A model generated the notes under the pieces. That model saw nothing but the letters and a program-made list of their open reading frames with translations. It made no database searches and was not told the DNA's origin. The translations under genes and the position numbers were made by a program. From Posidonia oceanica (lineage: Eukaryota; Streptophyta; Magnoliopsida; Alismatales; Posidoniaceae), in contig JAZBRS010000023.1 in the NCBI GenBank assembly GCA_037176725.1, positions 26,097,001 through 26,161,000 on the forward strand: 64,000 bases of DNA. The letters run 5' to 3'. Below are positions 1 to 44,008 of this stretch, one piece after another; within the stretch, counting starts at the first letter, position 1; each line of letters opens with the position of its first letter.

Positions 1-80
1 ATTAGTCCACCGCCCAAGCTCCCCTGTCACGGCCGCTGTCGGTCGTCGGCCTCCTGCCACGCACGTCCCCTCCGCACTTA
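1..80. other. Unassigned GC-rich flank left of the duplicated block
   Basis: These bases precede the point where homology with 37050 onward begins. They do not match the corresponding stretch 36970-37049, which carries a TATA box. No coding frame or repeat was recognised in this short stretch, so copy 1 of the block starts next to a different neighbour than copy 2. Confidence 0.4.
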
Positions 81-5664: not shown

Positions 5665-5672
5665 TTTTTATA
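5665..5672 (-). promoter_or_regulatory. TATA box of LTR B
   Basis: On the minus strand the sequence reads CCACTATAAAAAAAA about 740 bases after the LTR start at 6413 and just before the GC-rich leader. This is the expected place for a Pol II TATA box. It implies a U3 of about 0.77 kb and an R-U5 of more than 3.5 kb. In copy 2 the equivalent (near 42655) is changed by one base. Confidence 0.6.
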
Positions 5673-5757
5673 GTGGTGGGGGGGCGATGAGGACCACCGG
5701 ATCTGATCTGGGCAGAGGGATGCCAGCCAAGATGTGGGTGTGAGGTGTAGGCCATAG

Positions 5758-6372
5758 GTTTAGGTTTTTTTTGTTTTCAAATAGGAAAGCATTAGGGTTT
5801 TTAGGTTTTGGTTGTGAATGGCACTTGGGTTTTTTGGGTTTGAATGCATGGGTTTAGGGTTTAGTGGATGGGTCTTGCATGGGATATCAGTTTAGGGTTT
5901 GGATGATATGGGTTTTGAAAGAAACATGGGTTTTGGGTTTTGGGCTTTGGGTTTAACTAGGATTTGACATGGGATGTGAGTTTAGGGTTTGTGATTTTGG
6001 TTGTGAGTTTGAATGGGATGTGACCTAGGGTTTCTAGGGTTTTGCTTGTAGGGTTTAACTGGGATTAGGGTTTAGGACTGGTTGTGAAAATGGGCGTGAA
6101 ATGGGATCAGGGTTTAGGGTTTAGGGTTTAGGTTGTGGTTGTGGATTTAAATGGGATGTGACCTAGGATTTCTAGGGTTTTGGTTGTAGGGTTTAACTGG
6201 GATTAGGGTTTAGGACTGGTTGTAGGTTTAGGGTTTGGGAATGGTTGTAAAAATCAGATTTGAAATGGGATTAGGGTTTAGGTTGTGGTTGTGGGTTTGA
6301 ATGGGATGTGACCTAGGGTTTCTAGCGTTTTGGTTGTAGGGTTTAACTGGGATTAGGGTTTGAGTCCACCAG
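5758..6372 (+). repeat. Telomere-like TTTAGGG-rich tract in U3 of LTR B
   Basis: The stretch is a degenerate mixture of GGGTTTAGGG, GGTTTTGGG and TGTGACCTAGGGTTTCTAGG phrases. Up to three consecutive TTTAGGG units occur near 6110-6135. On the LTR sense strand these read AAACCCTAA, the plant telo-box sequence. Comparable tracts occur at the U3 end of LTR D (29040-29400), G (56160-56700), H (59880-60130) and the second B copy (42740-43370). Confidence 0.7.
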
Positions 6373-6413
6373 AGAAGAGCCATTAATCCTGGAGTCAAAA
6401 TGGGGTGTCTACA

Positions 6414-7006
6414 CTAGCGACCAAGCCCTGATCCAGACAGAGTGCTGAACTGCCGTTTTTGCCGCCTTCCGCTTGTTTCCTTCGACGCTTCTGTTTTCAG
6501 TTTGCTCTCTTGTTGTTTATCACCATTTTGCAATGCCTCGATTTCACTTATTTTGCTTTTAAACAAGGTTTTGCTAAGCTTTGCATGGTTTATAAAATTG
6601 CATCTGCATATCGCCTTAGGGCGCATATAAATCGGCATTCATTTGCCAACATTTTGCCACACTGTAGTAGATCAGTTAGAGAGACCGATTCCTCGGGCGT
6701 GTCAAGGGTGCCTAACACCTTCCCCGCACGTAACAGGAGTCCTTGTCCTTTCTCTAAACCGCATTGACTTTGTGTCATCCATTTGCATGTTCTTTACATA
6801 GTTTTCCTAGTTTTCCCGATTTAATAAATTAGGTAGCGACTCTCTTTCTTTTATTTTACTTTTCTTTTGCGTTTGCCTCTGTTTTCCGATGTTTTCGCGT
6901 CAAAGATCCCTCCTCGAAACCAACTGCTAATAGTGAACCTAATCCCAATTGGTGCACGCGAGCTCTGGCATCGTGCATGAACGATCCGAGTTTCGGGATT
7001 ACTACA
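6414..7006 (+). mobile_element. LTR A, 3' portion (copy 1)
   Basis: This is the R/U5 end of LTR A. It carries the family-wide block GTGCCTAACACCTTCCCCG at 6708-6726 and the U5 phrase TAGGTAGCGACTC near 6830. It terminates in GGGATTACTACA at 7006, one base before the primer-binding site. The left end abuts nested LTR B at 6413/6414. Confidence 0.85.
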
Positions 7007-7007
7007 G

Positions 7008-7025
7008 TGGCGACTCCACTGGGGA
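7008..7025 (+). promoter_or_regulatory. Primer-binding site of element A (copy 1)
   Basis: TGGCGACTCCACTGGGGA follows the LTR end after a single G. A PBS starting TGG pairs with the universal CCA end of a tRNA. This particular sequence is the one known from Ogre/Tat elements, where tRNA-Arg is the usual assignment. It fixes the element orientation as plus. Confidence 0.9.
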
Positions 7026-8224
7026 TACTAGACTCCGACTTTCGTTCCACTCTTCCGCTTTCTGTGTGGCTTGTGTATTTGCTTAGCTTAGCACCTGTTG
7101 CCTTGTTTATTTGCTTACAGCATTATGCTTTACTTATTGCTTATCTCAGCATTTAATTACTTTACTTGCTTATCTATTGCTTTAATTCATGCACTTTCCT
7201 TATTCCAGCATTCGACTACCATGCTTGCATGATTATTGCTTTAATCCATACCTTTTTGTCTGATGCTTGGTTTATTTTACACAAATATGCCATGTCACTT
7301 CACTAATGCACATGCCATGCTCGTATATGCCTTTTGATGTGCTGGTTGTCTTTCATTTTCACTAAACATGTCCACAACACTAGCACATACCATGAGAATG
7401 CTTTTTGCAATGATGTATGATGTTTGCCTGCCATGTTTGGGTGATTTTCTTCTCCTTTGCATTAAGCCTAAGGACAATTAGAGACTGATTGCTTCCCCCA
7501 TGGCTAACTAAAAACGGCAAGTAAAAATAACTAGGTACAACTAGAGACCTCCACACACTTGCATCCCCTTTGTGTTAATAAAATATGCAAGATAAAAGAC
7601 TTTAATCATGTTTGCATGAAGCATCATATAGGGCAAACATCTTCTCATCTAAGTCTACCTACCAGTCCGAGAAGGATAGTCCCGGCCTCTTGCTCCATCG
7701 CTTTGGTGTGGCGTGAGTTGGTCGGTCTATCTCCCTTGTTCGGGGTCGCGTCGGTGTTAGTAGAGGGTGCAGCCCATGCTTTGGCAGGGCCAAGGCTCCT
7801 AAAGCACCACCCCGTCACTGCCTGAGCTTCGGCCAGGATTTAGACGTGCGACCTACTTTTTCTGACCTAAGTCGGTGACCCGTACACCTATGAGTGTCCA
7901 AAGTAGACTACCTACTAGGATACACTAGATTGGTGAGAGAGAGCATGCTAGAAAGCATACATGTCATTCATACCACAATTAAATACATTTGCATTTCACT
8001 TTCAGGTTCTAATCCCTATTTCTATTTATGTTGTGTCAAACAGAGGTCAGTGAGCAAGTTCCCTAGCTAGGAGCTCGAGTACTTTCCCTTACTGACACCC
8101 CTGTTGTGACACTTGTTCACGACCATCCTCTTCCGAGCTATCCATTTTTGCAACGATAGCTCCAACTAGGACTCGTCCTCTTTCTTCTCGTCGCAGCCCT
8201 ATTCACACTCGCTCTAGGTCAGCG
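7026..8224 (+). other. Untranslated leader of element A (copy 1) with a conserved core
   Basis: No long ORF is present between the PBS and gag. The T-rich first half contains nothing recognisable. The stretch from about 7695 to 7900 is strikingly conserved in the independent element C (minus strand, 27112-27355), at about 88% by eye, although it is not obviously coding. Position and conservation fit a packaging, dimerisation or translation signal; that role is inferred. Confidence 0.65.
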
Positions 8225-9318
8225 ATGGCCCAGCGCACCATTGAGCCCCTACTTACTGTTGTCTCGGAGGGGATTTCCGCTTCGGTCCCTCCGACTCTCG
8301 CTTCCACTCCCTCTGTGCCCCTTGTGGCACCAGGGTTTCCCCCTCTAGTGTCTGGGGCACCCCAGTATGCTATGGGGCATTGGCAGACTTACGCCCCTCT
8401 GGATCCGGTCACCGAGCCCATCTTGATGACCCCTACTCGTGCTTCGGAGGCGCCTTTAACCCCTCCTTCCTAGGGCCATGTCACTCTTGACATCCCTCCT
8501 GCTGCGGCGACCCTTGCCATAGATTCCCTATCTCCTGGACAATCTGTGTCCCGGCCTCTTGAATTTGGTTCCCCGCCGGTACTGCACCTCAACATTCCCA
8601 CTGACGGGACATCTGACATGCAGTACCAGCGCCTGATGGAGCTTGCCCAGAGGCTACAGGGCATGCCTCTATCGGTTCGCCCCTCTTTCATTCCTACTGC
8701 TCCTGAGATTCCCCTGCAGCCTGCTCCTGCACATCATGCCTTCCCCTCTGCACCCCCGCCTGGACCATCGCCTCAGCTACTCACTGCTCAGGCGATGGGG
8801 GCATGGTTTCCGTCTCCTACATCTGCACAGCACTATGCACAGAATGCACCTCTGCCACCTGTTGGCCAATCCTTCGGGCTGGTTGGAGACAGTACCCCAC
8901 AGGCCCACCGCCCGGCACCGCGTCGGTGCGGCCACTGTTGCTCTAGCACTCTGCATTACCACCTGCACAGCATTCTAGCTATCCTTACCCCTTGCATCAG
9001 GCTCAGATCCCCGCATACATTCCATCATACACTACACCACTGCACGCATACGCCAGCCATCCCGTCGCACCACCAGGCGACGTGATGGTGGATCCGGAGG
9101 AGTACCTCGGTGCGACCCAACCGGCGTATGTGATCTCTGCCCCTGCTGCCCCATCACCTCCGGCAGCCAATCCAGACCCCATCAATAGTAGGGTGGACGT
9201 TCTGGAGAAAGCACCACGTCTAGGGTAGAGTACTGACCACCGCTCCTACCAATTCCGGGACCTCCGCTACTTTCCAGAGGCAGTACTCCCATCGAAACTC
9301 AAAATCTCGGAATTTCAT
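8225..9318 (+). pseudogene. gag: gag remnant of element A (copy 1), truncated
   Basis: The frame opens with MAQRTIEPLL, whose preceding residues (TRSRSA) and start match the gag of element C, so ATG 8225 or slightly upstream is plausible. The visible part is the Pro/Ser-rich N-terminal region of a Tat-type gag. An in-frame TAG interrupts it at 8472-8474 and is shared with copy 2. The frame is further broken near 8885-8900. At 9318, just where the capsid domain would begin, homology to gag ends and unrelated sequence follows, so the capsid and nucleic-acid-binding parts are absent. It cannot give a functional Gag. Confidence 0.8.
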
Positions 9319-9861
9319 CCCCCAACGTAGGGATATTTAATCCGATTTCATCCCCCCTGGTAAATATTATTTTGGTGCAATCAACCGAACACACTCTCCA
9401 AAGTACAGAGGACACAGCCGACGTAAACATTTCCAGCTTATTCCAAACACTTAAATTGCCAGCAGAGCCTCACGAAGGTCAGACTGCAAGGGAGTTGACA
9501 ACAGAGCCACATGAAGGCCAGACTGTAGCTGCAAAACCTCACGAAAGTCAGACTGCAACATCGCTGCCACCACTATTAGGCGCACCGGCCCCCGAACCTC
9601 CGGATTGGCCACCTCTTTCTTCTTCGCCCTCTTCTTCCGGTGCCGTGGCCCCTGAACCTCCGGATCGGCCACCTCTTCCTTCTTCTCCCTCCTCTTCCGG
9701 CACCGCCGCTTCTAAGCCTCCGCCTCCTCCAGCTCCAGACATCTTTTCCTCCTTGGAGCAAAGGCCGGGGCAAATTCTACACAAGTCACAACGACTCGTA
9801 GACAAGGTCCGCCGCCTCACGGCTGATTTCTCTAAAGGTCTACAACCTCAGAGACCTGAAG
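9319..9861 (+). other. Pol-upstream linker of element F, Pro-rich ORF
   Basis: Sequence changes abruptly at 9318/9319. An open frame at 9372-9935 encodes a threefold octapeptide-like repeat (variants of EPHEGQTA, residues about 32-60), then Pro/Ser-rich repeats around APEPPDWPPL and APEPPDRPPL, and an acidic tail. I do not recognise a domain. In Tat elements a poorly conserved linker precedes RT, so this is probably that part of element F's polyprotein. It is in a different frame from the pol ORF that starts at 9862. A short direct repeat (ATTTCATCCCCC) occurs at about 9313 and again about 38 bases later, next to the junction. Confidence 0.5.
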
Positions 9862-12030
9862 TTGACCCCGATCCAGGGGCCGACTATGAGCTTCTCGAAG
9901 ATGATGGGAACATCAATCCTGACGAGCCCGCCTAGAGAGGTGCCTACCTCTACTGATGGAGGTAACTCTAGGGGTATCCCCCTAGATGCTGTAAATAAAA
10001 CTTTGTTTAATTCTACATTGTTTTCATTTCCTAGGAATAAAAGTAATTTGCTTCCTGTTTACAATAAGGGAGAGGATCACCATGTTAGCTCTAGCAGCTC
10101 ACGGTCAACTTCAACCACTGCTTCCAAAACTATGCGCGTGTGTCAATACACGGAGGCATTGCCACAGGAGCTGGCTACCACTAACATGGTCTTCCTGGTA
10201 GAAGAGTTTGATCGGTTTGGGAAGTGTGCAGGAATAGAAGCATATGAACTGGTTAGCTGCAGTGATGAGGAAGAAGATCAAGAGGCCAACTCAGACCTCC
10301 TTAAGCACCTCATGGACAAATATGATGAGCAAACCAAGGCAGCTGAAGAAGAGACCGTGGAGGTCAACCTGGGAACCGCCGAAGAGCCAAAACCAATACT
10401 CATAAGTGCAAGCCTGAGCCCAGAAGAGCGGGAGGAAATGGTCCAAATCTTGAAGGAATTTGTGGATGTGCTGGCATTCAAATACGAGGATATGCCTGGA
10501 CTGCAATCAGCCCTAGTGGAACACCTGCTTCCACTAAACTCTGGAACCAAGCCCGTCAAGCAGAAGCTGAGGCGACTATGGCCGGAACATGCCCTCAAAG
10601 TCAAAGAAGAAATCGACAAGCTCCACAAAGCAAAATTCATCAGAGTGGTTGTGTACCCCAGCTGGGTCTCAAATATAGTACCAGTGGCCAAAAATGACGG
10701 GAAAGTTCGGGTTTGCATTGGCTATCGCAACCTCAACGCCGCCTGTCCCAAAGATGACTTCCCTTTGCCGCATATTGACTTGCTAGTGGACAATACAGCA
10801 GGATTTGAGATGCTATCTTTCATGGATAGTTTCTCCGATTACAACCAGATCAAGCTAGCAGAGGAGGACCAAGAAAAGACGTCATTCATCACAACATGGG
10901 GGACGTACTACTACGTAGTCATGCCATTCGGTCTCAAGAACGCCGGCGCAACATATCAGAGAGCGATGACGGCCATCTTCCACGACATGATGCACGATTA
11001 CATGGAAGTGTATGTTGATGATGTCTTGGTCAAATCAAGAACAAGGGAGGCACACTTTGAGGCGCTAAGAAGGGTGCTGAGCAGAGCAAGGCAATATCAG
11101 CTGAAAATGAACCCAAAGAAATGTGTGTTTGGGGTAACTGCCAGGAAGCTACTGGGCTTCATCATCAGCAAAAGAGGAATCGAGGTGGACCCACAGAAGG
11201 CCAGAGCAATAGTACAGATGCCTCCGCCCCGAAACATCAAGGAACTCAAAGGACTTATTGGCCGCTTACAATTCATCAGGAGATTCATCTCACAGCATGC
11301 AGATCGATGTAAGCCATTTTATGAGTTACTGAAGGGAGGAAGGGAATTCACCTGGGATGAGAAATGCCAAAAAGCTTTTGATGAACTCAAAGCATATCTC
11401 ATGACTCCCCCAGTCTTGTCAGCACCTGTGCCAGGGAAGCCTTTGCTACTCCATGTGGTAGCCACTGCATCGTCAATAGGGGTAGTGCTAGCTCAGCATG
11501 ATGAGGATGGAAAGAAGGAAAAAGCTATCTACTATCTGAGTAAAACTTTCCTGGGCAATGAGGAGAAGTACACAGCCATAGAAAAGTACTGCTTGGCCTT
11601 TGTATGGGCATCTCAAAAGTTGAGACACTACTTCCTGGCCCATAAAGTCTGTTACATTGCCAAAATGGAACCAATCAAATATATGTTCGAGAAGTCAGCC
11701 CTCTCTGGAAGGTTGGCAAGGTGGCAACTTCTCCTCACTGAATTCGACTTGCAATATGTGTCCCAGAAGGCAGTCAAGGGGCAGGCCATTGCAGATCACC
11801 TGGCAGAACTCCCAATAGAAGACTATCAACCAGTCCGGACAGACTTCCCCAATGAGGAGATACTGGAAATACAAGCCAGCGAGTCTCCCACTCAACAATG
11901 GACTCTCTACTTTGATGGAGCACTCAACAGACAAGGGGCGGGCATCGGAGTAGCACTTCTCACTCCGGAGGGAGTTCTCATTTCTCGAGCTGTACAGCTA
12001 AACTTCGCCGTAAAGGCACCCCGAGCCTAA
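9862..12030 (+). CDS. pol: Ty3/gypsy pol fragment: RT, RNaseH, truncated second RNaseH (element F)
   Basis: This uninterrupted 722-codon frame copies RNA to DNA during retrotransposition. An acidic N-terminal linker runs to about residue 190. RT follows, with KPVKQKLRR (about 230), PKDDFPLPHID (about 300), MPFGLKNAGATYQ (354 on) and the catalytic YVDD at 384-387. The connection and Ty3-type RNaseH lie at about 520-620 (AIYYLSKTF, CLAFVWASQKL). The second, archaeal-type RNaseH typical of Tat elements starts with WTLYFDGALN (near 680). It is cut after about 35 residues, and no integrase follows before the antisense gene at 12178. It is the only pol frame in the window without internal stops, and its active-site residues look intact. 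The true start is uncertain because this is part of a polyprotein. Confidence 0.9.
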   Translation: MTPIQGPTMSFSKMMGTSILTSPPREVPTSTDGGNSRGIPLDAVNKTLFNSTLFSFPRNKSNLLPVYNKGEDHHVSSSSSRSTSTTASKTMRVCQYTEALPQELATTNMVFLVEEFDRFGKCAGIEAYELVSCSDEEEDQEANSDLLKHLMDKYDEQTKAAEEETVEVNLGTAEEPKPILISASLSPEEREEMVQILKEFVDVLAFKYEDMPGLQSALVEHLLPLNSGTKPVKQKLRRLWPEHALKVKEEIDKLHKAKFIRVVVYPSWVSNIVPVAKNDGKVRVCIGYRNLNAACPKDDFPLPHIDLLVDNTAGFEMLSFMDSFSDYNQIKLAEEDQEKTSFITTWGTYYYVVMPFGLKNAGATYQRAMTAIFHDMMHDYMEVYVDDVLVKSRTREAHFEALRRVLSRARQYQLKMNPKKCVFGVTARKLLGFIISKRGIEVDPQKARAIVQMPPPRNIKELKGLIGRLQFIRRFISQHADRCKPFYELLKGGREFTWDEKCQKAFDELKAYLMTPPVLSAPVPGKPLLLHVVATASSIGVVLAQHDEDGKKEKAIYYLSKTFLGNEEKYTAIEKYCLAFVWASQKLRHYFLAHKVCYIAKMEPIKYMFEKSALSGRLARWQLLLTEFDLQYVSQKAVKGQAIADHLAELPIEDYQPVRTDFPNEEILEIQASESPTQQWTLYFDGALNRQGAGIGVALLTPEGVLISRAVQLNFAVKAPRA

Positions 12031-12175: not shown

Positions 12176-15082
12176 TCATACCGCCTGAGACTGGGCGATC
12201 TCGGTATCCTTGTCGGCCACCTGCTGCTCTAGCTCCTGGATCTGAGCACTCCTAGCAGTGACTGTCCCCTCCAACTCCTCTAACCTCCCGACAAAGCTGG
12301 CAGTTAGGAAGTCACCAGCCCACTCCCTCAACTCGCCCTCTAGATAAGCGACCTACAAGCAATGGCGTCAGGACCAAGGGGATTTCAAAAGCAAAAACAA
12401 AATGAAAGCATATTTACCTTCTCCTGGAGATGGGAGATCTCCTCTGAGTGGTCCAGAGGTGGAGCGCTGCTAGTCGAATGCTGAAAAGGAGGATTCAAGT
12501 CAGTTACAATTCATAGCCAGACTACAAAAGCTACTTGTGAAAAAATACCTGAGAGGCAGAGGCCCGTAGACGGTCAATCTCCCTGGTCAGAATGGAGAGC
12601 TACTGGGTCAAATGGTGCTCCTGCTGAGCCCGCTCATCGGCCACCTTGAGCTGCAAAAGAAAGAAAGCCAGTTAGCCAAATTGAATTAACGATATACAAA
12701 ATGAAATTCAAAAGCTCACCGCTATCTGTAGCTGGGTTCAAGAAGACTGAACCGCCTCCAACAGAGCTGCACGGGAAACCACCGCCTCCTAGGGATCTGT
12801 GTCCCCCAAAGGAAGTTTCCCGCACTCAAGGAAGTGGGACCGGTGGAAGATCATCAGAGAGGAAAACTCCCAGTCTACCCACTCAGCCCAATTCGCCTCA
12901 TCCTCCTCTGTAGCATACATCAGAGCAGGGGCACCACGACGGGCCCAGTCTAGGACCTGTAGGTCGTAGACGTCCACCCAGTGGCGAGCACGGCTGCCCC
13001 CGCCGAGTGTCTCTCACCAAACTCGGTAAGGAGGAGGTGAAGGTCGAGCCTGCTGGTGCCCTACCTGTCGTAGCGCCCCGCCAATCTGCTGGAAGTGGCA
13101 ATGTTTCCAGCAGTGGATCTATACGTCCCGGTCGAAAATGGGCCGTTCACGGGCAATCTCGGGGACGTCCGCATGCTCCCCCTCAGCATAGGGACGCCAA
13201 AACACCTAAAAAGAGCAATACATGTCAGCAAGCAGCATAAACAAATAAACCGAAGCTGAAATTAAAAGAAGCAAGTTGCCTGAGCTGGGACAAGGAGCTC
13301 GAAAAGTAGACGACCGACAGCGGTTGTCATCTGCAGGCTCGAGGGCCTTCTCAGCAATAGCCCAAAACAGTCCCCGAGGAAAGGGGACACTGGTAGGAGG
13401 AACCGGAGGAGGGGCAGGGTGCAAAAAGGCAAAGTGGTCCCACGCCTACATCTGCACGCAAAACAAGGAAGCTGTTAGCAAGAATATAATATCCAATACA
13501 AGCTTAAATATGCAGATTTACCTGAAGGAAGGGCCGGTTCCCTCCCAGCTGGTGAGAACTACCATCGGTGAAGCGGAATAGGGTGGAGTACAGGTGCGCC
13601 AAGCTCGCCGCACCCTAGGCATACTCTCCCACACACTCCAGGTCCGCCAGAAGGGGAAGGAACCATGCTGAGAGCTTCGAGGAGAAGTGCGAGAAGAGCA
13701 CCTCCCCGAACAGCACCAAGAGGAAGGCCGCAGCTGCTGGTCAGCCTCCACACCTGGTCCGTCAACTGTCTCCGCCAGCTTACTCACCCGGCGAACCGCG
13801 GAAGTAATTGCCACGAGCTACTCCCCGCTCATGGCTAACTGGCGTCCAACAAGCTCCTGTGCCAAAATCGAGTAGCTCGGGCCCACCCTCCCTATCACTG
13901 GTCTGCCCGTAACCCGGAGACCAGTCAGCCGCGCCATGTCCTCAAGAGAGAGGACAAACTCACCCGCCCGAGTTACGATCGAGCTCGTCCGAAAGCTCCA
14001 CCGCTCTGCAACCGCCTCCAGAAACATCGGACGGAGGGGAAAGTCTGGGATGGACAAGAAATGCCCAAATCCCAACCGATCTAGACGCTCCTGCTGGAAA
14101 GAAGCCAACGAAGCGTAGGACCGGCGGACCTGACCCCAGTAGCAGCGGGTCACGGCCGGTGCTCGACTCTACAACGAAGTAGGAAAACAATCAGTCAAGA
14201 TGAAATAATTGAACAAAATAAGGAGAAAAGAATGAAAATTGTTTACCTGCCCCATGGAAGCCAGTGTGGCAGTGCCATACTTTGATTGGGACGCATCCCT
14301 ACGTGATCCCGACGCCTGCACCTCGTCTTTGGGGATCTGCTCCCGCCAGTAATCTGGGGGATACCTCGCGACGCCCTCCGCCTCCCGTCAGACGAAGTCT
14401 ACCATGTTCCACCACCAGCCGTCGTTCTCGCCAAACTGCGGAAGGAAGGGGTCGACTGGCCTCGCCTCGGGTACCTCCGAAGGCCCTACCTCGTCTAGGT
14501 TGACCTCGGGCCTTGCCTCTGAGACTGTCTCCTTGGAATCCTCCAAAGTGAAGGAAGTGCTGGAACCGGAGACCGCCTCCGCCGTCGTCTCTCCGGCCTC
14601 CCCAGAACCAGAGCCCTCCCCCACGGTGGCCTCACTAGCCATCGCCTCCGCCTCCACGACGTCGTCGCCAACCACCACCTCTGTCTCCACGGAACCACCC
14701 ATGGCAGCCCCCGTCTCCGCTCCTGCAGCCTCGGCATCACCACCAGACGTCGCCCCGGGCATCCCCACGGCACCATCGGCCTCCACCTTGCCTGCCACAC
14801 CCACCTCGGCCTCCACGACCACCATAACAGCCGGCCCAAGCACAGCAGCTACCGGCCTAGGCGCAGCAGCCACCGGGCACGCCCCTGCAGCCGCCGAGCT
14901 CGCCCCCACCGACGACCCCCCGCCTGCCACGCCCTCGCTGGCGCTTCCCACCGCCCTCGCCACCGTTTCCCGCATTGCAACACCGCCAGCCGACGCTTCC
15001 GCCGCCGCCTCGCCGAAGGTGAAGGTCCGGTCCGAGCTCGCTTGGCCGCCCACGTGTAAAACTGAGATATATGCCTCTCCAT
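12176..15082 (-). pseudogene. Antisense plant-mobile-domain (PMD)-like gene, seven exons, degenerate
   Basis: Minus-strand exons: 15082-14247, 14168-13522, 13451-13280, 13205-12720, 12650-12549, 12480-12418, 12352-12176. All introns are GT-AG except the third, which is GC-AG, and reading phase holds across the junctions. Exon 1 encodes an Ala/Glu-rich acidic N-terminus. Exon 2 shows PMD hallmarks: GEFVLSLEDMARLTGLRV, then (frame-shifted near 13735) LFGEVLFSHFSSKLS and GAASLAHLYSTLFRF. Exons 3-4 continue with AWDHF and VFWRPYAEGEH; exons 5-7 form a coiled-coil tail (LEELEGTV, IQELEQQVADKD). In-frame stops lie at 14388, 13818, 13615, 13446, 13119, 13014, 12789 and 12600. It is therefore a dead copy, though gene structure is preserved. 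PMD proteins occur in plant regulators and, as known, in transposable elements; here it lies antisense downstream of pol. The start is uncertain: ATG 15082 may need a shift to enter the long acidic frame. Confidence 0.72.
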
Positions 15083-15180
15083 GATTCGCTGGAATGGGGA
15101 GAAGGTTGCCGGAGTGATTGCTGTCGCTGGAGAAGAAGAGGGGAAGAAACCAGATGGCCACCCGCAACGTAGGACGAGGG

Positions 15181-15188
15181 TTTTATAC
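15181..15188 (-). promoter_or_regulatory. TATA box upstream of antisense gene 1
   Basis: On the minus strand the sequence is AGGTATAAAACCC, about 100 bases upstream of the candidate ATG at 15082. That is ordinary spacing for a TATA box, a short 5' UTR and a start codon. It implies that the antisense gene has its own promoter inside the element. Confidence 0.6.
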
Positions 15189-15242
15189 CTTCTAACGTTG
15201 TACACGTGAATCCCAGCATCCAACGCCTCGGGAAGAAAGGAT

Positions 15243-15342
15243 GTTATACGTGCCCTATTACGCGTTCAACGTTTTGCGAGTTAAAACGTTAGCTGCTGGC
15301 TTTCAGCGTAAAACGTTGGACGCTCCATTTTGAGCGTACAAC
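15243..15342. repeat. Cluster of four GTT...AAC hairpins upstream of antisense gene 1
   Basis: Four short inverted repeats follow one another, each opening with GTT and closing with AAC. The clearest is GTTGGACGCTC (15315-15325) with GAGCGTACAAC (15332-15342). Others are GTTTT...AAAAC near 15280 and GTTAGCTGC...GCGTAAAAC near 15290-15314. They lie between the TATA box of gene 1 and the 3' end of gene 2. Confidence 0.6.
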
Positions 15343-15461
15343 GCTTTAAGTTCAGGGAAGTCTTCTGAATTCTGATATTCTCATTCAATTCATACAAATT
15401 CATTCAATATGAACCAAAGAGACGAGATAAATTTTATTGATGATAAGTGATACATTTCTAA

Positions 15462-16813
15462 CTACATCTTCTGTCTTTTTGAAGGGAATTCAATAAACAA
15501 TTTAGGACACACGCCCTCGTACCAAGCGTTATAAGTTGCAAGGGAAATGACTTCACGGTCCGCATTCGAGTTCTCCCATGCAGAAAGGACTCGGTTTCGC
15601 CCCTTCCCGTCCCAGGTACCAGCTTGATAGAAGACTTGGATGATGTCCCCAGGAGTGTCCCTCAAACGTGGGAGAATCATATCAGAGAAGCGCGGCAAGG
15701 GAGGTATAGCCCGCAGAGTACCCAGCATTGAGAAGCAGCGCTGAGGGTTGTACCTCACAAAGTCGGTCGCCCCAATCAGCGTCAGGAAATACTCCGAGTC
15801 AGACACTGTCCTGAAAGACGAGGGGGGACTGAAGGAATCCATCTGGGATTTGAGCTCGCTGGCGCAAAGGCGGCGGATGAGCTCCTCCAAGGGAAGGCTA
15901 GCATCAAAAGCAGGTAGAAGAAAGTGCTCCTCCAGCCAACGCAGAACTAGGAACGGTGAGCCAAAGAATGGCCCCCCGAGGCAGGCACTGGATAAGCCCC
16001 AGATGGTAAAAGCCAAAATAGATTGACTCAAACACTTCTCCAGGTTGTGCACGCAGATGCACATGAGCTCGACATGGTAGGCACTAATAGTCAGAGCTTC
16101 ATTCGGGAAGAGCACCAGTCCCCCGATCAGAATGAAGACGCACTCCAAGCAAGAAGCCTCAGAGCGGATGCTGTCGCTCTGTTTCCAAAAAATTTTCGAC
16201 AAAGAGGAGAGTTTGATACAGCCATCCAGCACCAGGTCCTCCGGCACAACAATAGAGCTGAAGATGCGCTTTAAGAGAGAGAAAGAACCTACCACCCTGA
16301 TTGGCAGAAGGTAGGCATCCCTGCAGTAAATGAATGGGTCGGCATGCCAAGTACCTAGGAGGGCGCTCACCTCCTCCATGAGAATGGTCAATTCCCCAGA
16401 AGAAGAAAAGAACGTATGAGTCAAGGGACTCCACAGCCCATAGAGGCCGAAGAGCGCCTTCCAGTCAACTAGCTGCCGCAGCTGGCGAAGGGCCTGACAG
16501 AGACCAACCTCCTCCAAACGTTCCTGGTACTTCTTCAAAACCCAAGAGCAGAATTGTTGAACCCAGTCCAACTGATAGGCTTTCGAGTCCCGGTCATTGT
16601 TGGCAGAAGATAGGGGCTATAAAGTAAAGAAAAATTAGCAGAAGTACGAGAATGGGAGTATGCGGAAAAGATGAAAATAGGGAGTACCTTCTCATGCACC
16701 AACAGGTTCGTCAACAGGTTGGGTATGGCCTCCCGCCGGAGCTGCACCATGTCAGAAGGAGAGGAGAAGACAGCCACCTGGAAAGCATGACATGGGATAT
16801 CACTCAAATCCAT
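15462..16813 (-). CDS. Antisense gene 2, intact two-exon plant-specific protein (426 aa)
   Basis: Exon 1 is 16813-16688 (start MDLSDIPCHAF). A 71-base GT-AG intron (donor GAGAAG|GTACTC, acceptor TTTATAG|CCCC) keeps the frame into exon 2, 16616-15462, which has 384 codons and then a stop. No internal stop or frameshift is seen, unlike its neighbours. Exon 2 has ALFGLYGLWSPLTHTFF followed by GELTILMEEVSALLG. That pattern resembles the plant-mobile-domain/DUF7745-like families common in plant retroelement-associated proteins. The C-terminus is basic (PSKRQKM). I see no signal peptide or clear catalytic motif. The function is unknown. The family assignment is by pattern and moderate; an independent captured host gene is possible. 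Its position, between antisense gene 1 and the minisatellites and in the same orientation, suggests both are cargo of element F. Confidence 0.78.
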
Positions 16814-17174
16814 GAGGAGAAGCACAAGCCCTAGCAAGAAAAAATCAATAAAGGAAGGAAGATAAATGTTTGAACTACAAGATTCAAGCCCAGAGGAGGT
16901 CTAATATAGGCCGTGGAGCCTTCATCAGAATGGAAACCCAAGGAAAATTGGGAGTTTACTACCAAAACGGCGGTGCCCGAACAGGAAAGACAGCAGTCTG
17001 TCTCGTGACATTATACGCGGCCGTAATGCTGTCCAACGTTAGCCGCGGTGCTTCAAGCGTCCAACGTTGAACGCTAACAATCAAGCGTCCAATGAGTCAA
17101 AGCAAAATTGAGAGCAGAAAAAAAGAACCCTGGAGCACAACCGGGTCAACAAAGCAAGCTAATCCAAAAAGTAT
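16814..17174. other. Upstream region of antisense gene 2 with GTT...AAC hairpins
   Basis: No credible ORF is present. Around 17025-17095 there is another chain of short inverted repeats around GTCCAACGTT and GCGTCCAACGTTGAACGC, again bracketed by GTT and AAC. This is the same theme found upstream of antisense gene 1. I could not point to a clear TATA box for gene 2. Confidence 0.45.
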
Positions 17175-18247
17175 CCTTTTCGACTCCCTTGGGTCTTCCC
17201 CTAGGCACGTCATGTTTTTATTTCCGACTCCCTTGGGTCTTCCCCTAGGCACGTCATGTTTTTATTTTCGACTCCCTCGGGTCTTCCCCTAGGCATGTCA
17301 TGTTTTTATTTTTGACTCCCTCAGGTCTTCTCCTAGGCACGTCATGTTTTTATTTTCGACTCCCTTGGGTCTTCCCCTAGGCACGTCATGTTTTTATTTT
17401 CGACTCCCTTGGGTCTTCCATTAGGCATGTCATGTTTTTATTTTCGAATCCCTCGGGTCTTCCCCTAGGCACGTCATGTTCTTATTTTCGACTCCCTTGG
17501 TCTTCCCCTAGGCACGTCATGTTTTTATTTTCGACTCCCTTGGGTCTTTCCCTAGGCACGTCATGCTTTTATTTCTGACTCCCTTGGGTCTTCCCCTAGG
17601 CACGTCATGTTTTTATTTTCGACTCCCTTGGGTCTTCCCCTAAGCACGTCATGTTTTTATTTTCGACTCTCTCAGGTCTTCCCCTAGGCATGTCATGTTT
17701 TCGACTCCCTTGGGTCTTCCTCTAGGCATGTCATGTTTTTATTTTCGGCTCCCTCGGGTCTTCCCCTAGGCACGTCATGCTTTTATTCTCGACTCCCATG
17801 GGTCATCCTCTAGGCATGTCATGTTTTTATTTTCGACTCCCTCGGATCTTCCCCTAGGCACATCATGTTTTTATTTTCGACTCCCTTGGGTCTTCCCCTA
17901 GGCATGTCATGTTTTTATTTTCGACTCCCTTGGGTCTTCCCCTAGGCACGTCAAGTTTTTATTTTCGACTCCCTTGGGTCTTCCCCTAGGCACGTCAAGT
18001 TTTTATTTTCGACCCCTTGGGTCTTCCCCTAGGCACGTCAAGTTTTTATTTTCGACTCCCTTGGGTCTTCCCCTAGGCACGTCATGTTTTTACTTTCGAC
18101 TCCCTTGGGTCTTCCCCTAGGCATGTCATGTTTTTATTTTCGACTCCCTTGGTCTTCCCGTAGGCACGTCATGTTATTGTTTCGACTCCCTTAGGTCTTC
18201 CCCTTGGCATGTCAGGTTTTTATTTCTGCCTCCCTTGGGTAATCCCC
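17175..18247 (+). repeat. 44-bp minisatellite, about 24 copies
   Basis: The unit is about 44 bases: CGACTCCCTTGGGTCTTCCC, then CTAGGCACGTCATG, then TTTTTATTTT. Most units differ by one to three bases and a few by single-base indels. Long minisatellites between the coding region and the polypurine tract are known in Ogre/Tat elements. Confidence 0.93.
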
Positions 18248-18744
18248 TCAGCAAAAGCAAAGATCCTCGGAGTACAACTGGGACACCAAAGCAAAGATCC
18301 CTGGAGCACAACCGAGATAACAAAGCAAACCAATCAAGGAAAGATCCCCAGAGCACAACCGGGATAACAAAGCAAACCTACGAAGGAAAGATCCCCGGAG
18401 CACAACCGGGATACCAAAGCAAAGATCCCTGAAGCATAACCGGGATACCAAAGCAAAGATCCCCGAAGCATAACCGGGACATCAAAGCAAAGAACCCTGG
18501 AGCCTAACCGGGACATCAAAGCAAACCCCGAAGCACAACCGGACAAACTAAGCAAGCCAATCAAAAGCAGGTACCCCGGCGCACAACCGGACAAATAAAG
18601 CAAGTCCCGGAGCATAACCAGATAAACAAAGCAAACCTTGAAGCACAACCGGACAAACAAAGCAAACCAATCAAAAGCAGGTACCCCAGAGCACAACCGG
18701 ACAAACAAAGCAAGCCCCAGAGCACAACCAGGTCAACAAAGCAA
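18248..18744 (+). repeat. Second minisatellite, about 30-40-bp units, roughly 14 copies
   Basis: Units are variants of AAAGATCCCCGGAGCACAAC followed by CGGGATACCAAAGC, with spacing from about 30 to 40 bases and some insertions (CCAATCAAAAGCAGGTACC). It directly follows the 44-bp array but is unrelated in sequence. Confidence 0.85.
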
Positions 18745-19130
18745 AGCCAACGGTATTAGTGAACCCCCTGTTCACTAACTCCCGGGTCAGAAGATGATGG
18801 TCCCCACCGAGAATGTAGGCAACATTCAATGAAAGGACACTTGATTCTGATGAATAACACCAACGGTATCAATGAACTCATCGTTCATTGATTCCGGGTC
18901 ATGAGATAACCGTCTCTGTCGAGAATGTAAGCAACATTCAATGAAAGGACACCTAATTGTGACGAGTAGAGCCAACACGGTCGGCAGAGAAGAGATCATT
19001 TCCCCTTTTGCTTGGGAGCATCATGGGCCTCTCACTCACCAACCCGCGTATCATGAGACGACGATCCCCTGGAGAGTATAGGCTACACTCGAGGAAAGGG
19101 CACCTGATCATGACAAATTGCATTCACGCA
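18745..19130 (+). repeat. Third repeat: three diverged ~110-bp units
   Basis: Units start near 18746, 18859 and 18968 (CCAACGGTAT...). They share a short hairpin, for example GTGAAC...GTTCAC and CAATGAAC...GTTCATTG, and the phrase GCAACATTCAATGAAAGGAC. The third copy is the most diverged. Confidence 0.75.
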
Positions 19131-19337
19131 TGTGTCAGTCCACCTTGGGTGGTGAGAAAAATTCCTGAGCCAACCTGGTATACAAATTAAAGCCAGCGAT
19201 GATGGAGGAACCTCATTATCTAGGGTCATGCATTGCATATCATGACCCCTTTTGCATTCCTGTCAGCATGCATCCATGTATAGCACATTGTACTGCATTC
19301 ACATTGAGTGGTCGTCGGAATCATTAACTATCCATCC
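19131..19337. other. Unassigned spacer between repeat arrays
   Basis: This is about 200 bases of A/T-rich unique sequence. I see no coding frame, hairpin or repeat in it. Confidence 0.5.
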
Positions 19338-19545
19338 TTTTAGTTTGACCCCCGCGGGCCACCCCTGCGGCATGTCTTTTAGTTTGACCCCTGCGGGCCA
19401 TCCCCGTAGCATGTCTTTTAGTTTGACCCCTGCGGGCCATCCCCATAGCATGTCTTTTAGTTTGACCCCCGCGGGCCATCCCCGCAGCACTGTCCTTTAG
19501 CTTGACCCCCACAGGCCATCCCCATGGCATGTCGTTAGTTTGTTC
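19338..19545 (+). repeat. Fourth minisatellite: 39-bp unit, about five copies
   Basis: The unit is AGTTTGACCCCTGCGGGCCA followed by TCCCCGCAGCATGTCTTTT. Because 39 is a multiple of three, the minus strand reads as an open 13-residue repeat (GWPAGVKLKDMLR). That is a by-product of the repeat and not evidence of a protein. Confidence 0.9.
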
Positions 19546-19706
19546 CCCTTCGGCAATCCCCTTGGCCGTGTTTCTTTAGCCGACCCTCTTTGTGTCCCGT
19601 CCAAGTCTGGTGGCAGCAGGCATTGGATTTCATTTACGACCCCCAAGTACCGCCACACGGGGGTATCGTCTCGCCTTGTAGATAACTTCCTGCCGAAGCC
19701 ATCTTC

Positions 19707-19718
19707 AAGGAGGGGCAA
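19707..19718 (+). promoter_or_regulatory. Polypurine tract of element F
   Basis: CAAGGAGGGGCA lies two bases before the LTR start TGTAGATACTCC at 19721. This is where the plus-strand primer PPT of an LTR element sits. It identifies the LTR at 19721 as a 3' LTR of a plus-strand element whose body lies to the left. Confidence 0.75.
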
Positions 19719-20158
19719 TCTGTAGATACTCCATTTTGGCACTCCCTTCATGTTAGGATAGTCTCTTGCATTAGGTCGCTTTTAGAGGCCCTCCACCCAT
19801 TTCTGAATCTCATTTGAGCTAAATGTTCCTCTCAAGTCCAAAATGCTATACCTTTCTAAGCCCCAAATGTTGGCAACCTGAGTGTTCTTCACGTCCTGAC
19901 CAAATTTGGAAGTCAAACTAATTAAGGGTGTTGTCTGCTGATTTTCCAGCAGCTAACATTGGCCGTTGGCTTTCCAGCGTCCAACGTGGCAACCCAGTCA
20001 GCCAAAGCTTTCCTTATTTAGCCTAATTCAGAAATCATGTTTTTGCCTTCTTTGAAACCTGTTGACTGGTCAAAGCCATTAAAGCCGAGTTTAATCACAC
20101 TTAAAGACTCCTTAATTGGAGAATCTTCTCTGATCCTAGCAGTTATGCCTCGAAGATC

Positions 20159-20214
20159 GTTATACGCGAGTTCTCTCGCTTATAACATTATACGCTGGTT
20201 TTCCAGTATATAAC
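20159..20214 (+). repeat. Two adjacent hairpins upstream of the LTR F TATA box
   Basis: GTTATACGCGAG (20159-20170) pairs with CTCGCTTATAAC (20175-20186). ATTATACGCTGG (20187-20198) pairs with CCAGTATATAAC (20203-20214). Arms differ between the two hairpins but stay largely complementary within each. They sit about 65 bases before the TATA box. Confidence 0.7.
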
Positions 20215-20278
20215 ACTTCTGAAACAGGAAACTCTGTTGACTTGGCGTTTGAGTCCTTTTTTGTTCCTCCCTTGCTTC

Positions 20279-20285
20279 TATAAAA
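20279..20285 (+). promoter_or_regulatory. TATA box of LTR F
   Basis: CTTCTATAAAAGCAAGGG is a canonical plant TATA context inside a T-rich U3. Transcription would start near 20310. Confidence 0.65.
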
Positions 20286-20730
20286 GCAAGGGTACCTCTA
20301 TTGAGTTCAAGGCTGGAATTTTGAGAGAGAAAAAGAGCTAAGAAACTTTTGGAACTCGCATACTCTTGAGATTAAAAATCATAGAGAAGTGAGGTCCTTA
20401 AGAATTGAAAGAGACAAGAGAGTTTTTGAAAGAAGGAGAGTCTTAGAAAAGCTTGAGGATCCTTTTGTCGTTGTTGGCTTGATGCCAACACGGTTTGCAC
20501 CTTGTGCATAGATAGAGGAGACTCTATTTCATTCATTTCTCATTTTTTTTATTTCTGATATTACATGTTTAATTCCGTAGTATAATCAAGCATTTTTATT
20601 TCAAGTTCATATATTCTTAGCTAGGCATACATCTCTTTTATTTGCAACCGGGGGGATCAAACCCCTCGAGTACGTATCTCACTACGTTTTCTTTACTTTC
20701 ATTTCTACTAACTCTGGATAGATTACTACA

Positions 20731-20989
20731 CATATTGATCCGTTTTTATATTGTCTTATTTGTTTTGCTTTGCTAACGTTTGTCATACAAGGAGGAAGAA
20801 GGAAGAAAGAGCTTACCGAGCACGGGCACCCTTGGACAATGCTAGCGTTGTCCCAAGGTAGCTGAACCCGCAACCACACTACATCTCCCCAAAGGCGTCT
20901 CGAGGGCTGGCAAAAGTGAACCGAGAGTGGCGATCACACCGATTCCATCACACGTGGAGTGACGGTGTCGGATACAAAGAAGGGAGACT
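20731..20989. other. Unassigned segment between LTR F and LTR E
   Basis: No gene is present. A TGG-starting stretch at 20928-20945 (TGGCGATCACACCGATTC) resembles a primer-binding site. If real, LTR F would extend to about 20927 and act as a 5' LTR, contradicting the PPT evidence, so I leave it unassigned. Confidence 0.35.
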
Positions 20990-21332
20990 TTGAGAAAGAG
21001 AAGATCGAGCGAGCAAAAGAAGGAGCCAAAAAGAAGCCTTTTTCTTCCCACAAAATCTCCCATCATCATTATCTTCTTCTTCTCCTCCAAAAAAACCCCA
21101 TATCCGACGTCCCTGGACATGGCATCCAACGTTAGACGCCAGAGAGACAGGCGTCTAACACAGGCCAGAGAGAAAAAAGAAAAAAAAAACATACAAAAAA
21201 AAAATAAAAAAATGGGAACATGCATTTGGGCTACTGGAGACAAACAGAGGGCAAGCATGCAAGCAAGGGAAGCATAAGAAATCCAAAAAAAATTACCTAT
21301 AGCATGTGCCAGGCCAGAGGCACAACCAGAAT

Positions 21333-22203
21333 GTTGGACGCGAGCTAGGCTGGCGTCCAATGTTGGACACCTGCTCCAGCAGCGTACAATGCCCTAGGAG
21401 GCACAAACACACAAAAACTTGCATGGAACATAGCAAATGAACTAAAAAAGCCATGGAATAATTGCAAAGGAAGCTAAGCATGCATGGCAACGCAGGAATA
21501 CAATAAACAACAAGATCAGAGCATTATACGAGCATCAAAAAGCAAATAGAGGGGCAGGGCCGTTAGACGCTGGAGGTACCAGCGTCCAACGCCCACGGCA
21601 TGCAAACTTACCTGTGCTAAGGGGGAGCTCAGCTCTAAATCCCACCTATATGCATGCAAACATACTGATGGCATACCAGAGCAAAGGAAACATGTATAGC
21701 AAGCATTTAAGTCAAGGAAAGAAAGCAAGGAAGAACATGCATGGGAATAAAGGCTAAAAGCAATAACATGCAATTTAAAAGGAGGCTAACAATCCTAAGC
21801 ATGGTTGCCATAGAGGCCAGGCATCTCTAAGCAAACACAGAACAAGCATAGACATCAAAGATAGGCATGGTACAAGCATGGCAGCAAGTTACAGCTAACA
21901 GAGGTGTTAGACGCCAGGTGAACCAGTGTCCAACGTTGGACGCGGCTCACCCAGGCGTCCAACGCAAGCAGGAGGCAAACAGATTCAAAGCATGCAAGAA
22001 AGATTAGGCATGGATCAAAGCAGAGAAGTAGGAATGGTATAACATCTGAAAATGAGTAAAGGAGGCATGCTGCATGGATTCACAGAAAAATAAAAAATAG
22101 CAAAGCATGGAAGGTATTAAAACAGGAGCAAAGCAAGACAGGGTGTTGGATGCTGCCCTAGGTCGCGTCCAACGTTGGACGCACCATCTGGTGCGTCCAA
22201 CAC
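21333..22203. repeat. Hairpin clusters in LTR E (four sites)
   Basis: The sites are 21333-21394, 21562-21590, 21904-21963 and 22144-22203. Examples: GTTAGACGCTGG (21562-21573) with CCAGCGTCCAAC (21579-21590); and GTTGGACGCACCA (22174-22186) with TGGTGCGTCCAAC (22189-22201), a perfect 13-base arm pair. Adjacent hairpins abut as ...CCAAC|GTTGG..., giving the recurring GTCCAACGTTGGAC palindrome. Confidence 0.8.
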
Positions 22204-23049
22204 ACTGAACTTCACTTCAGTTAAGCGAGGCTGCCAAATCGATCGAAAACTTCAACTAAACTAGCTAACAAGCAAAAGTGGTCGATAACAATCATAGTGG
22301 TATGCTTGGTGCCGAAATTAGGTAGGTGAATTACTCCCCCCACCTCTTCCTCCTTATCGTCGAAAAACCAAACGATGGAGGGGTGTGTGCTGTGCTAAAG
22401 TGCATGGAAAGCATAGGAAAATGATCACACTAGCATGCATGGGCCTAAGTGGAAGAAAACCAAGCTTTAGACGGCCTGGAACGGTGGAAGCTCCTTCGTC
22501 GTCGGCGCTACGGAGGTTGCGGCAGAGCCAACTCCGACGAGGTCCCACGAGCTACTGGAGGCACCAGAAGGGTCGGTGAAGGGTCGAGGATGGAGGTGGA
22601 TGATCACTCTGTGCTCTGGAGTCGACGAATTCCCTCTTGGCTCTCTGTGGTGAATGCTGGAATGGAGGGAAGGGGGTTGTTTTGTGCATCCAGTGCATGG
22701 GTTCGTGTGCGGGCAGCGGCTTTTGCAGAGGATTTGTAGGCGGTTGCAGGTGGTGTCAGAGGCATCTAAGTGTGTGGGAGGCTCGAGGGATGTCAGGAGC
22801 TTGGCAGAGGTGTGTTAGATGGCCGATGGAGCCACGGTGATGGCTAACACGGGCGGTCGAAGGTTGTGAGGGCGGAGAGAGCGGGATTTGGGCTGAAATG
22901 GCAATGATGGGTTCCAAAGGTAATTACTCATCCTTGGAAGGTAGTGGATGAGCTGGAGGGCAAGAGAGGACAGGTAGTAAGTGCGAGGAGGCGGTGGATT
23001 GGACGGCTGGTGAGCTGGAAGGGGCGGAACAGCCGCTGCTGTAACCGAG

Positions 23050-23170
23050 CCGTTGGACGCTAGAGCAAAAGGCGTCCAACATTGGACGCTAGCACAGGGC
23101 GCGTCCAACGTTGGACACTGGCACAGGGCGTGTCCAACGTTGGGCGCTGCCTATTCCAGCGTACAACACG
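23050..23170. repeat. Fifth hairpin chain in LTR E
   Basis: Four GTTGGACGC-like and GCGTCCAAC-like arms alternate with 9-12-base loops, joined at CCAACGTTGG and CCAACATTGG. It lies at the edge of the GC-rich stretch of the LTR. Confidence 0.75.
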
Positions 23171-23586
23171 CTTAGTTGGCAAAAGCTGCAAATGGGCTCG
23201 GACTTGGGTTTAGGAAGGCTTGAAAATGTGCAAAAGGCTTGGGTTAAGGTTTGGAGGGTTTAGGTAAAGCTTTAGGCTTGGAAATGGGCTAGAAAATGGG
23301 TTAGGAAAAAGAATGCCATTCCAGAGTTCACACGAGCCTGCAAGAGAAAACAACCAACTTCCAGGCTGTCAGAATGGGGTGTCTACAGCCACGGATGTAG
23401 GGTTGTTGTCTGCATAGCGGATTGAAGCGTGCTGCTTCGCTCGGAGGGTGGGGCTAGGTCCTCCTGATAATGCTTCCCATGCAGTTGGCAATGTTATGCT
23501 TGGAGTTGAGAGTTGAGGGGGCTTCGATGCTTGTTCGAGTCACTCCTCTCATGGGCGCCTTCTTTCTTCAACTTCTTTCTTCATTT

Positions 23587-23826
23587 TTATTTTGTGCCCA
23601 GCATGCATATCTTATTATCATATTTTTTGCTCGCATGATCTCTATTCTTTAGGATATGAATGACTTCACCCTCTTGGGGTAGCGGTCCCGGATGAGGCAT
23701 TAAGAGTTCGGCCGATCGGCGTACACTCTCAGCCTCTGCTATGTATGCTTGCAGCCTCTGTCTATGCTCTGCTCTGCTTTGGCCCTCTCCATGTCTGGTA
23801 GACTTTCTTGATAGCGTGGATCGCAC
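23587..23826 (-). pseudogene. Short coiled-coil-like ORF remnant
   Basis: A 79-codon frame is rich in charged residues (HRQRLQAYIAEAESVRRSAE) and has PGPLPQEGEVIHI after it. It has helical, coiled-coil-like composition like the tails of PMD-type element proteins. No partner exon was identified, and it may be a chance ORF. Confidence 0.3.
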
Positions 23827-23985
23827 CTTTGGAGTTTTGAGCTTCGCGAGTCACTCTATTCTGCTCTTAGTCTCACTTTGTAGCCACATGCTAGAGATGA
23901 TATGTATATGCAGAAAATGAAAACGCATGTGCAGGGAGGGATAGATATATGCAAGATGATAAGTTGACGGAACTATCGCCGGATA

Positions 23986-24204
23986 GTTAGGGCTATCAGC
24001 CCGTTGTGACATTTTAACGGGCGTCAACCAAGCAGTTAGGGCTGCTAGCCCGATGTGACATTTTAATGGGTGTCAACCAAGCAATTAGGGTTGCCAGCCC
24101 GATGTGACATTTTAACGGGTGTCAACCGAGCAGTTAAGGCTGCTAGCCTGATGTGACATTTTAACGGGTGTCAACCGAGCAGTTAGGGCTACCAGCCCGA
24201 TGTG
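23986..24204 (+). repeat. 49-bp minisatellite with internal hairpin, about 4.5 copies
   Basis: The unit is GTTAGGGCTGCTAGCCCGAT, then GTGACATTTTAACGGGTGTC, then AACCGAGCA. Every unit contains a GGGCT...AGCCC inverted repeat whose loop varies (ATC, GCT, ACC). The last unit is truncated. Confidence 0.9.
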
Positions 24205-37036: not shown

Positions 37037-37049
37037 TCATGCAGATAAA

Positions 37050-44007: not shown

Positions 44008-44008
44008 G

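Follow-up and report, generated by a model that had tools for sequence, protein, structure and literature searches.

Results

Palindromic units in a nest of retrotransposons

The 64,000-nucleotide stretch of the Posidonia oceanica genome analyzed here, which we call the window (G000:C22:26097001-26161000), is set in a nest of long terminal repeat (LTR) retrotransposons. Between its positions 15169 and 23167 the window carries short palindromic units in and near two LTRs, termed LTR F and LTR E, and upstream of two antisense open reading frames (ORFs), which is the placement given by a first-pass annotation of the same sequence. Once aligned, the units share the module GTTGGACGC-N10/11-GCGTCCAAC; they are 27–29 nt long, and neighbors mostly abut. 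All the arm pairs that the annotation had quoted, four in number, were located, as were its three GTCCAACGTTGGAC joints. It had also described GTT and AAC as the constant outer bases, and a constant outer part does exist, although the near-constant stretch is nine bases long rather than three.

To detect units, the window was scanned with the half-sites GTTGGACGC and GCGTCCAAC, scored out of 18, with a main threshold of at least 14/18 and a spacer of 10–11 nt. This recovered 18 units, as against a mean of 0.26 per window in 50 dinucleotide-shuffled sequences. Six weaker units from the list at 12/18 or better and one recognized by eye (20187–20214) bring the total to 25 units in 11 chains. At 12/18 or better with spacers of 10–11 nt, 46 units were observed where about 21 are expected by chance, and lone weak units are near chance level; the seven weak units were accepted because each adjoins a stronger unit or another weak one. 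Perfect 9-bp inverted repeats are enriched in the chain region (18 versus 0.5 expected) and nowhere else in the window (3 versus 1.0 to its left, 5 versus 5.2 to its right). From one chain to another the flanks have little in common, the best case being one 32-nt stretch (E 2e-4) that is counted repeatedly in overlapping flanks. The palindromic units are thereby confirmed as real, and they are far more numerous than the first-pass annotation had stated.

Three chains accompany the antisense ORFs, both of which are located between the ORF for reverse transcriptase (RT) and RNase H (9802–12030) and LTR F. The larger antisense ORF (15462–16616, minus strand) spans 384 codons from stop to stop with no internal stop and gave a sub-threshold match to the plant mobile domain (PMD) of 21.9 bits, the cut-off being 34.9. 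The other (14388–15182, minus strand, stop to stop) is of low complexity and matched no family above the Pfam cut-off; a Pfam search with the two ORFs returned just PMD and Late_protein_L2, both sub-threshold. Chain C (17010–17093) comprises three 28-nt units 394–477 bp upstream of the PMD-like ORF, and no TATAAA-like hexamer was found near it. Chain B (15243–15342) contains units at 15243–15270, 15288–15314 (27 nt) and 15315–15342, with a 17-nt GTT..AAC remnant at 15271–15287. Chain A (15169–15224) has two 28-nt units, the first of which is decayed and overlaps an antisense TATA box, TATAAAA (15181–15187, minus strand); this box is at the 5' end of the ORF at 14388–15182, on the ORF side of chains B and A.

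LTR F (19721–21059, plus strand) begins with TGTAGATACTCC after a purine tract; its right end is approximate, and its span of ~1.34 kb is based on a homologue in locus L050 that matches at 82% across 19720–21059. Chain D (19930–19985), with two 28-nt units, begins 209 nt inside this LTR. Both 28-nt units of chain E (20159–20214) are of the GTTATACGC type, and the one recognized by eye is the second. Chain E starts 229 nt past the start of chain D and 438 nt inside the LTR, and the TATA box of LTR F, TATAAAA (20279–20285, plus strand), is located ~65 bp beyond its end.

LTR E (21060–23387, minus strand) starts at 23387 with TGTAGACACCCC, while position 21060 is the limit of LTR F rather than a mapped left end. 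The remaining chains are inside or near it: chain K (23052–23167; four 29-nt units, 220 nt inside the LTR), chain J (22145–22201; a 29-nt and a 28-nt unit, the latter, 22174–22201, with perfect 12-bp arms), chain I (21906–21963; two 29-nt units), chain H (21562–21590; a single 29-nt unit), chain G (21333–21390; two 29-nt units) and chain F (21102–21159; two 29-nt units, the first decayed). Homologues of chain K have two units in loci L038 and L048 and three in L031. The chains fall outside ORFs having Pfam matches; the stop-to-stop frames that overlap chains, 20842–21393 (chains F and G) and 14388–15182 (14 nt of chain A), match no family above the cut-off.

Genome-wide abundance and fixed length

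A search of the genome (2,962,952,704 bases, 2.96 Gb) for the exact pattern GTTGGACG-N{2,20}-CGTCCAAC gave 123,513 matches, compared with 4 for the reversed control. Gaps of 2–11 account for 246 exact-arm matches and gaps of 14–30 for 882, so that at most 882 of those within the 2–20 range have a gap of 14 or more; the total length is thus 28 or 29 in at least 122,385 matches (99.1%). This count demands exact arms but is free of any bias on spacer length from the unit definition. The joint CGTCCAACGTTGGACG (AAC|GTT) abuts exactly in 63,168 cases genome-wide, as opposed to 610 with 1–20 nt between. Sampling one contig at twenty regular intervals, 10 kb each time, gave 35 strongly clustered units (at least 14/18, spacer 10–11), and extrapolation from one contig suggests, as a weak estimate, about half a million units in the genome.

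The pair pattern was absent from the viral and the prokaryote collections searched (0 matches in each). Viral contigs gave five single exact matches with no comparable neighbors, which were taken as chance, and a search of viral contigs with the PMD-like ORF confirmed no match.

Pairs and ~231-bp arrays

For comparisons across loci, units were collected from the window and loci L006–L048 (L009 was dropped as it overlaps L008), taking those that score at least 14 plus abutting units that score at least 11; L010–L029 are regular samples of one contig and L030–L055 are targeted loci on another. The resulting 241 units, a set without the lower-scoring window chain E, form 125 chains, of which 100 are dimers, 18 are single units, 5 are trimers and 2 are tetramers. 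Units abut in chains as the first-pass annotation described, and most chains in the fetched loci are dimers; spacers are of 10–11 nt and rarely 9. Consecutive dimers are 219–253 nt apart in 45 of 63 cases, with a mode of 230–231 in LTRs. At 13 of 14 listed sites, all in loci with units, the first unit is 159–306 nt inside LTR-start-like sequence; at the fourteenth (L007:1544) a unit is located 43 nt before the start.

The 59 segments that intervene between dimers fall into 11 similarity clusters, each with one length between 150 and 196. Within an array, segments compared in register resemble each other more closely than when one is rotated (p 5e-9 over 58 pairs, which are not independent), and because of this in-register similarity the array is best read as an old, decayed ~230-bp tandem repeat of which the dimer is the persisting part. 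Spacing by phased nucleosomes was rejected, as the fixed length of each cluster and the in-register similarity point to an old tandem repeat. Within a pair, the two spacers also resemble one another (z 4.39, 23 pairs).

Other features of the pairs and arrays were recorded. Some pairs recur with exactly 20 bp between them (78-bp period), for example at L040 291–426 and L024 1224–1359. A rise in AT-dinucleotide periodicity was seen both at 10 bp and at 11.5 bp, and the measure was left out of the argument. On the sense strand, the segments between pairs in LTR E show strong asymmetry (T 43%, A 17%, TG 871 versus CA 420).

Conservation of arms and spacer length

Across 117 homologous dimer pairs, identity is 0.891 in the arms, 0.777 in the flanks and 0.628 in the spacers, the units having been chosen by their match to the arm consensus. 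The CpG slot of the arm is CG in 367 of 482 cases, and 39 segments between LTR E pairs contain 31 CG where 280 are expected. Of 234 comparisons, 20 showed a change in spacer length, and in 16 of these the spacer had switched between 10 and 11; the flank rate predicts ~60 gap events. The arms are therefore the most conserved stretch, contrary to the suggestion of the first-pass annotation that the fold and not the sequence persists, a view that the modest covariation and the lack of one common RNA fold among dimers, described below, also fail to uphold.

Compensated variation and folding

The same annotation had described inner arms that change while remaining complementary. Complementarity in the spacer is indeed above chance, but it is incomplete: among 61 non-redundant 29-mers, 30 have a Watson-Crick match at pair 10 and 16 at pair 12. 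Counting pairs in the 25 window units gave an overall covariation signal short of significance (p 0.12 for the arms and p 0.06 for the three outermost spacer pairs), with p 0.006 for the 27–28-nt units and p 0.66 for the 29-nt units. Folding energies gave a clearer signal than pair counts: when right halves were swapped among window units, only one of 2000 plus-strand shuffles folded equally well, and the minus strand gave p 0.0015; the swap was not significant for the 29-nt units alone (p 0.12), nor on the minus strand for whole spacers (p 0.28) or right arms (p 0.08). In the genomic set, reduced from 241 to 101 non-redundant units by spacer identity (35 28-mers and 61 29-mers tested), right-half swaps raised the folding energy, with z -4.5 for 28-mers and -3.5 for 29-mers. 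The only single pairs with p<0.01 were pair 3 in 28-mers and pairs 6 and 10 in 29-mers.

At homologous sites, compared over the 117 dimer pairs, which are not independent, the arms show 16 compensated mirror changes versus 1–5 off register, and pair 10 shows 31 versus 0–3. The odds ratio for joint change in the arms is 1.53 in register, yet 1.78 at shift -2 and 1.51 at -3; position 10 has a ratio of 6.45 in register and 3.38 at shift +1. Some mirror changes appear stepwise, as T-A, A.A, A-T (group 7) and T-A, C.A, C-G (group 3). Among 29-mers genome-wide, pair 10 is T-A in 25,471, A-T in 698, T.T in 2,936 and A.A in 2,821 (this last figure read off the reverse count); the odds ratio is ~2.1. 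A covariance check used an alignment of 67 rows, which combined nine window units with 58 non-redundant 29-mers, the other three of the 61 having been omitted as probable chance matches. Its score was matched by 5 of 500 shuffles, but the number of pair types was matched by 127 and other covariation measures by 12–127, with rows that are related and no tree used. The compensated variation noted in the first-pass annotation is hence present, as mirror changes exceed off-register ones and right-half swaps worsen folding, but it is modest and strongest at pair 10, and the rows in which it is seen are related.

Arm pairing across the joint of a dimer (z 1.65) is about as strong as that within its units (z 2.55 and 1.62; 40 non-redundant dimers), and when 100 dimers were folded as RNA, 45 formed mainly two hairpins and 54 paired mainly across the joint. 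Relative to shuffles, folding energies are far lower for chains J and K (z ~-9); the folds of chains A, B and C are poor (z -0.1 to -1.9). An Rfam search of window positions 14000–24000 at E<=0.1 returned no match. An excess of G.T over A.C mismatches (50 versus 26) was rejected as evidence for RNA because the segments between pairs share the bias. Spacer inversion, by the criterion used, was found in 0 of 214 homologous same-length comparisons, and the templated hairpin copying that the first-pass annotation had raised thus gains no specific support.

Host element

The PMD-like ORF yielded 24,240 first-look candidates genome-wide. There were 107 scored matches, 106 of them other copies at 88–91% identity over the full or nearly full length, and about 30 of the 107 have no internal stop (counted by eye). 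A tandem array of a 44-bp unit repeated 24.6 times occupies 17177–18248. Elsewhere in the window, a direct duplication of 9.3 kb (80–9317 and 37049–46318, 96.8% identical) includes a minus-strand LTR start (6413, 43415), and the duplicated stretch also holds a different, 43-nt hairpin that is likewise bounded by GTT..AAC (1249–1291, 1464–1506, 38439–38481).

Discussion

A putative protein-binding platform

From the architecture, copy number, spacing, placement and symmetric co-evolution of the units we infer protein binding and its effect on the element: on balance we favor, as somewhat probable, that the units are double-stranded, dyad-symmetric putative protein-binding sites controlling transcription of the LTRs and the antisense genes. 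Each 28/29-nt unit would present two inverted half-sites of nine to ten bases (core GTTGGACGC) placed 10–11 bp, or one helical turn, apart, and two abutting units would make a 57–58-bp pair with four half-sites. Such pairs are found in the LTRs and beside the two antisense ORFs of what appears to be a Tat/Retand-like LTR retrotransposon, and long LTRs carry them at intervals of ~231 bp, where they form the part that stayed conserved while the rest of a tandem repeat decayed. These arrays may be occupied by a DNA-binding protein that acts as a dimer or tetramer, either a host transcription factor or the product of an antisense gene. Once bound, this protein could switch or protect transcription of the element. 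The near-constant half-site, the free spacer fixed at one turn, the abutting pairs and the promoter-side placement fit the needs of such a protein; in the window, one chain overlaps the antisense TATA box and another ends ~65 bp before that of the LTR. The strict length of 28/29 nt likewise fits protein sites on a double helix better than RNA loops.

Several observations weigh against this reading. To our knowledge, no binding protein or footprint has been described for the palindromic unit. The similar minus-strand LTR starts at 6413 and 43415 have no units nearby, the LTR E pairs extend 2.3 kb into the LTR and are probably in transcribed DNA, no strict TATA box was found on the sense strand of the LTR E pair span, and no TATAAA-like hexamer was found near the chain of L052. 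Swaps of spacer halves among the non-redundant units gave z -2.4 and -3.2, showing that complementarity reaches into the spacer, where a plain protein site would not need it. The conservation of the arms and their CpG is inflated because units were chosen by match to the arm consensus, the unit definition may have missed larger spacer changes, and the copies are related, so that counts are not independent. The symmetric change at pair 10 could reflect either a shift in the preference of the protein or a residual hairpin constraint, and the data do not separate the two.

Alternative explanations

The units might instead work as functional hairpins, in which RNA (or single-stranded DNA) would form a stem of ~10 bp with an 8–9-nt loop and serve, for instance, in packaging, RNA stability or small RNA production. 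The better folding of window and non-redundant genomic units over right-half-swapped ones, the pair-10 compensation at homologous sites, the low energies of chains J and K and the probable location of the LTR E pairs within transcribed DNA are all consistent with such a role. We nevertheless consider it unlikely, since dimers are split between two hairpins and pairing across the joint, RNA loops do not need two fixed total lengths, chains A, B and C fold poorly, the 29-nt units of the window do not reach significance in the right-half swap, the strand bias between pairs matches the G.T excess and Rfam gave no match; in addition, stems of 9–12 bp are too short for Dicer. Similarly improbable is that the palindrome is a functionless passenger, spread with the ~230-bp repeat in successful LTR families and seemingly conserved because copies are young or were selected by their arms. 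The in-register similarity of intervening segments, the likeness of spacers within a pair, the differing number of units at homologous sites and the ascertainment bias favoring good arms would follow from this scenario. However, the module is common to LTR E and LTR F, which have no other listed similarity of at least 70 bp, and to the antisense ORFs; its spacer keeps to 10–11 nt while flanks gain gaps, and spacers diverge beyond the flanks while the arms stay.

In hairpin-templated correction, replication or reverse transcription would copy one arm from the other and so produce self-complementarity without selection. The compensated blocks GAG/CTC at 20159 and ACCA/TGGT at 22174 and the compensated mirror changes at homologous sites are of the kind expected, yet the intermediate mismatches in groups 7 and 3 look stepwise and spacer comparisons gave no inversion; moreover, correction alone would not hold one arm sequence or one spacer length, and we regard it as decidedly unlikely. 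Even less credible, and in our estimation very improbable, is that the units are self-inserting mobile micro-palindromes resembling REPINs or organelle hairpin elements. Their very high copy number, symmetric outer context and chains of abutting units recall such elements, but diverged copies share positions inside LTRs, and unit number differs by whole units, as tandem duplication or loss predicts. No empty site turned up, in the course of work that included no dedicated empty-site search.

Relation to known systems

VANDALs are DNA transposons, unlike the LTR retrotransposon that hosts the units described here. In Arabidopsis VANDAL elements, according to the available part of the report, an element-encoded anti-silencing protein, VANC, binds a motif whose repeats differ between related elements and removes methylation; copies of the VANC21 motif YAGTATTAY, which is not palindromic, run in a single direction (PMC5735166). 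Like VANC targets, the palindrome is repeated in noncoding parts of one element family; unlike them, as far as that part of the report describes them, it consists of inverted half-sites in abutting pairs instead of motifs in the same orientation. The closer parallel in element structure is with Retand LTR retrotransposons, for which the accessible portion of the source describes antisense ORFs between pol and the 3' LTR, tandem arrays in that region and a proposed DNA-binding antisense product (PMC11963269). The host element resembles these in its antisense ORFs between pol and the 3' LTR and its tandem arrays (PMC11963269; related review, PMC7264820). It differs in that its antisense ORFs gave no match to TRP28 (PF04195) in the Pfam search and in that LTR F, at ~1.34 kb, is above the LTR range of 315–1194 bp found in the available text (PMC11963269). 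Because of the missing TRP28 match and the long LTR, we do not file the element as Retand. The available text of the Retand paper (PMC11963269) does not contain "hairpin" or "inverted repeat", and "palindrom" occurs just in a reference title.

REPINs are bacterial, often paired and mobilized by a RAYT enzyme, whereas the present units travel inside a retrotransposon. In the part of the literature available, REPINs of Pseudomonas are very numerous short palindromic units (PMC3116915), and organelle double-hairpin elements, repetitive hairpin-forming elements and palindromic repeats are abundant short palindromes that form hairpins, are sometimes paired and are viewed as invasive or selfish (PMC2800124, PMC2670323). 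Compared with the organelle elements as these excerpts portray them, the units reported here are nuclear, occur at shared LTR positions and have near-constant arms and a fixed length. Literature searches by exact letters and by palindrome, hairpin and LTR topics gave no description of the palindromic unit among their top-ranked matches.

Implications

For a candidate protein site in a single genome, the rigid 28/29-bp palindrome is unusual in both its number, with more than 120,000 exact-arm copies, and its uniformity. A more specific proposal, which we put forward tentatively and hold to be doubtful, is that the antisense strand of the element encodes the protein that recognizes the paired palindrome, so that several hundred thousand docking sites of its own would be spread through one genome. 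Were this true, the one-turn spacing, abutting pairs and ~231-bp array would constitute an element-made chromatin or anti-silencing platform that evolved independently of VANC. The palindromes also make testable what antisense genes of the Tat/Retand type do, as one can ask whether their product binds palindromes by its own promoter and in the LTR. A protein that reads the palindrome, if there is one, could determine the timing of transcription or silencing in a large retrotransposon family.

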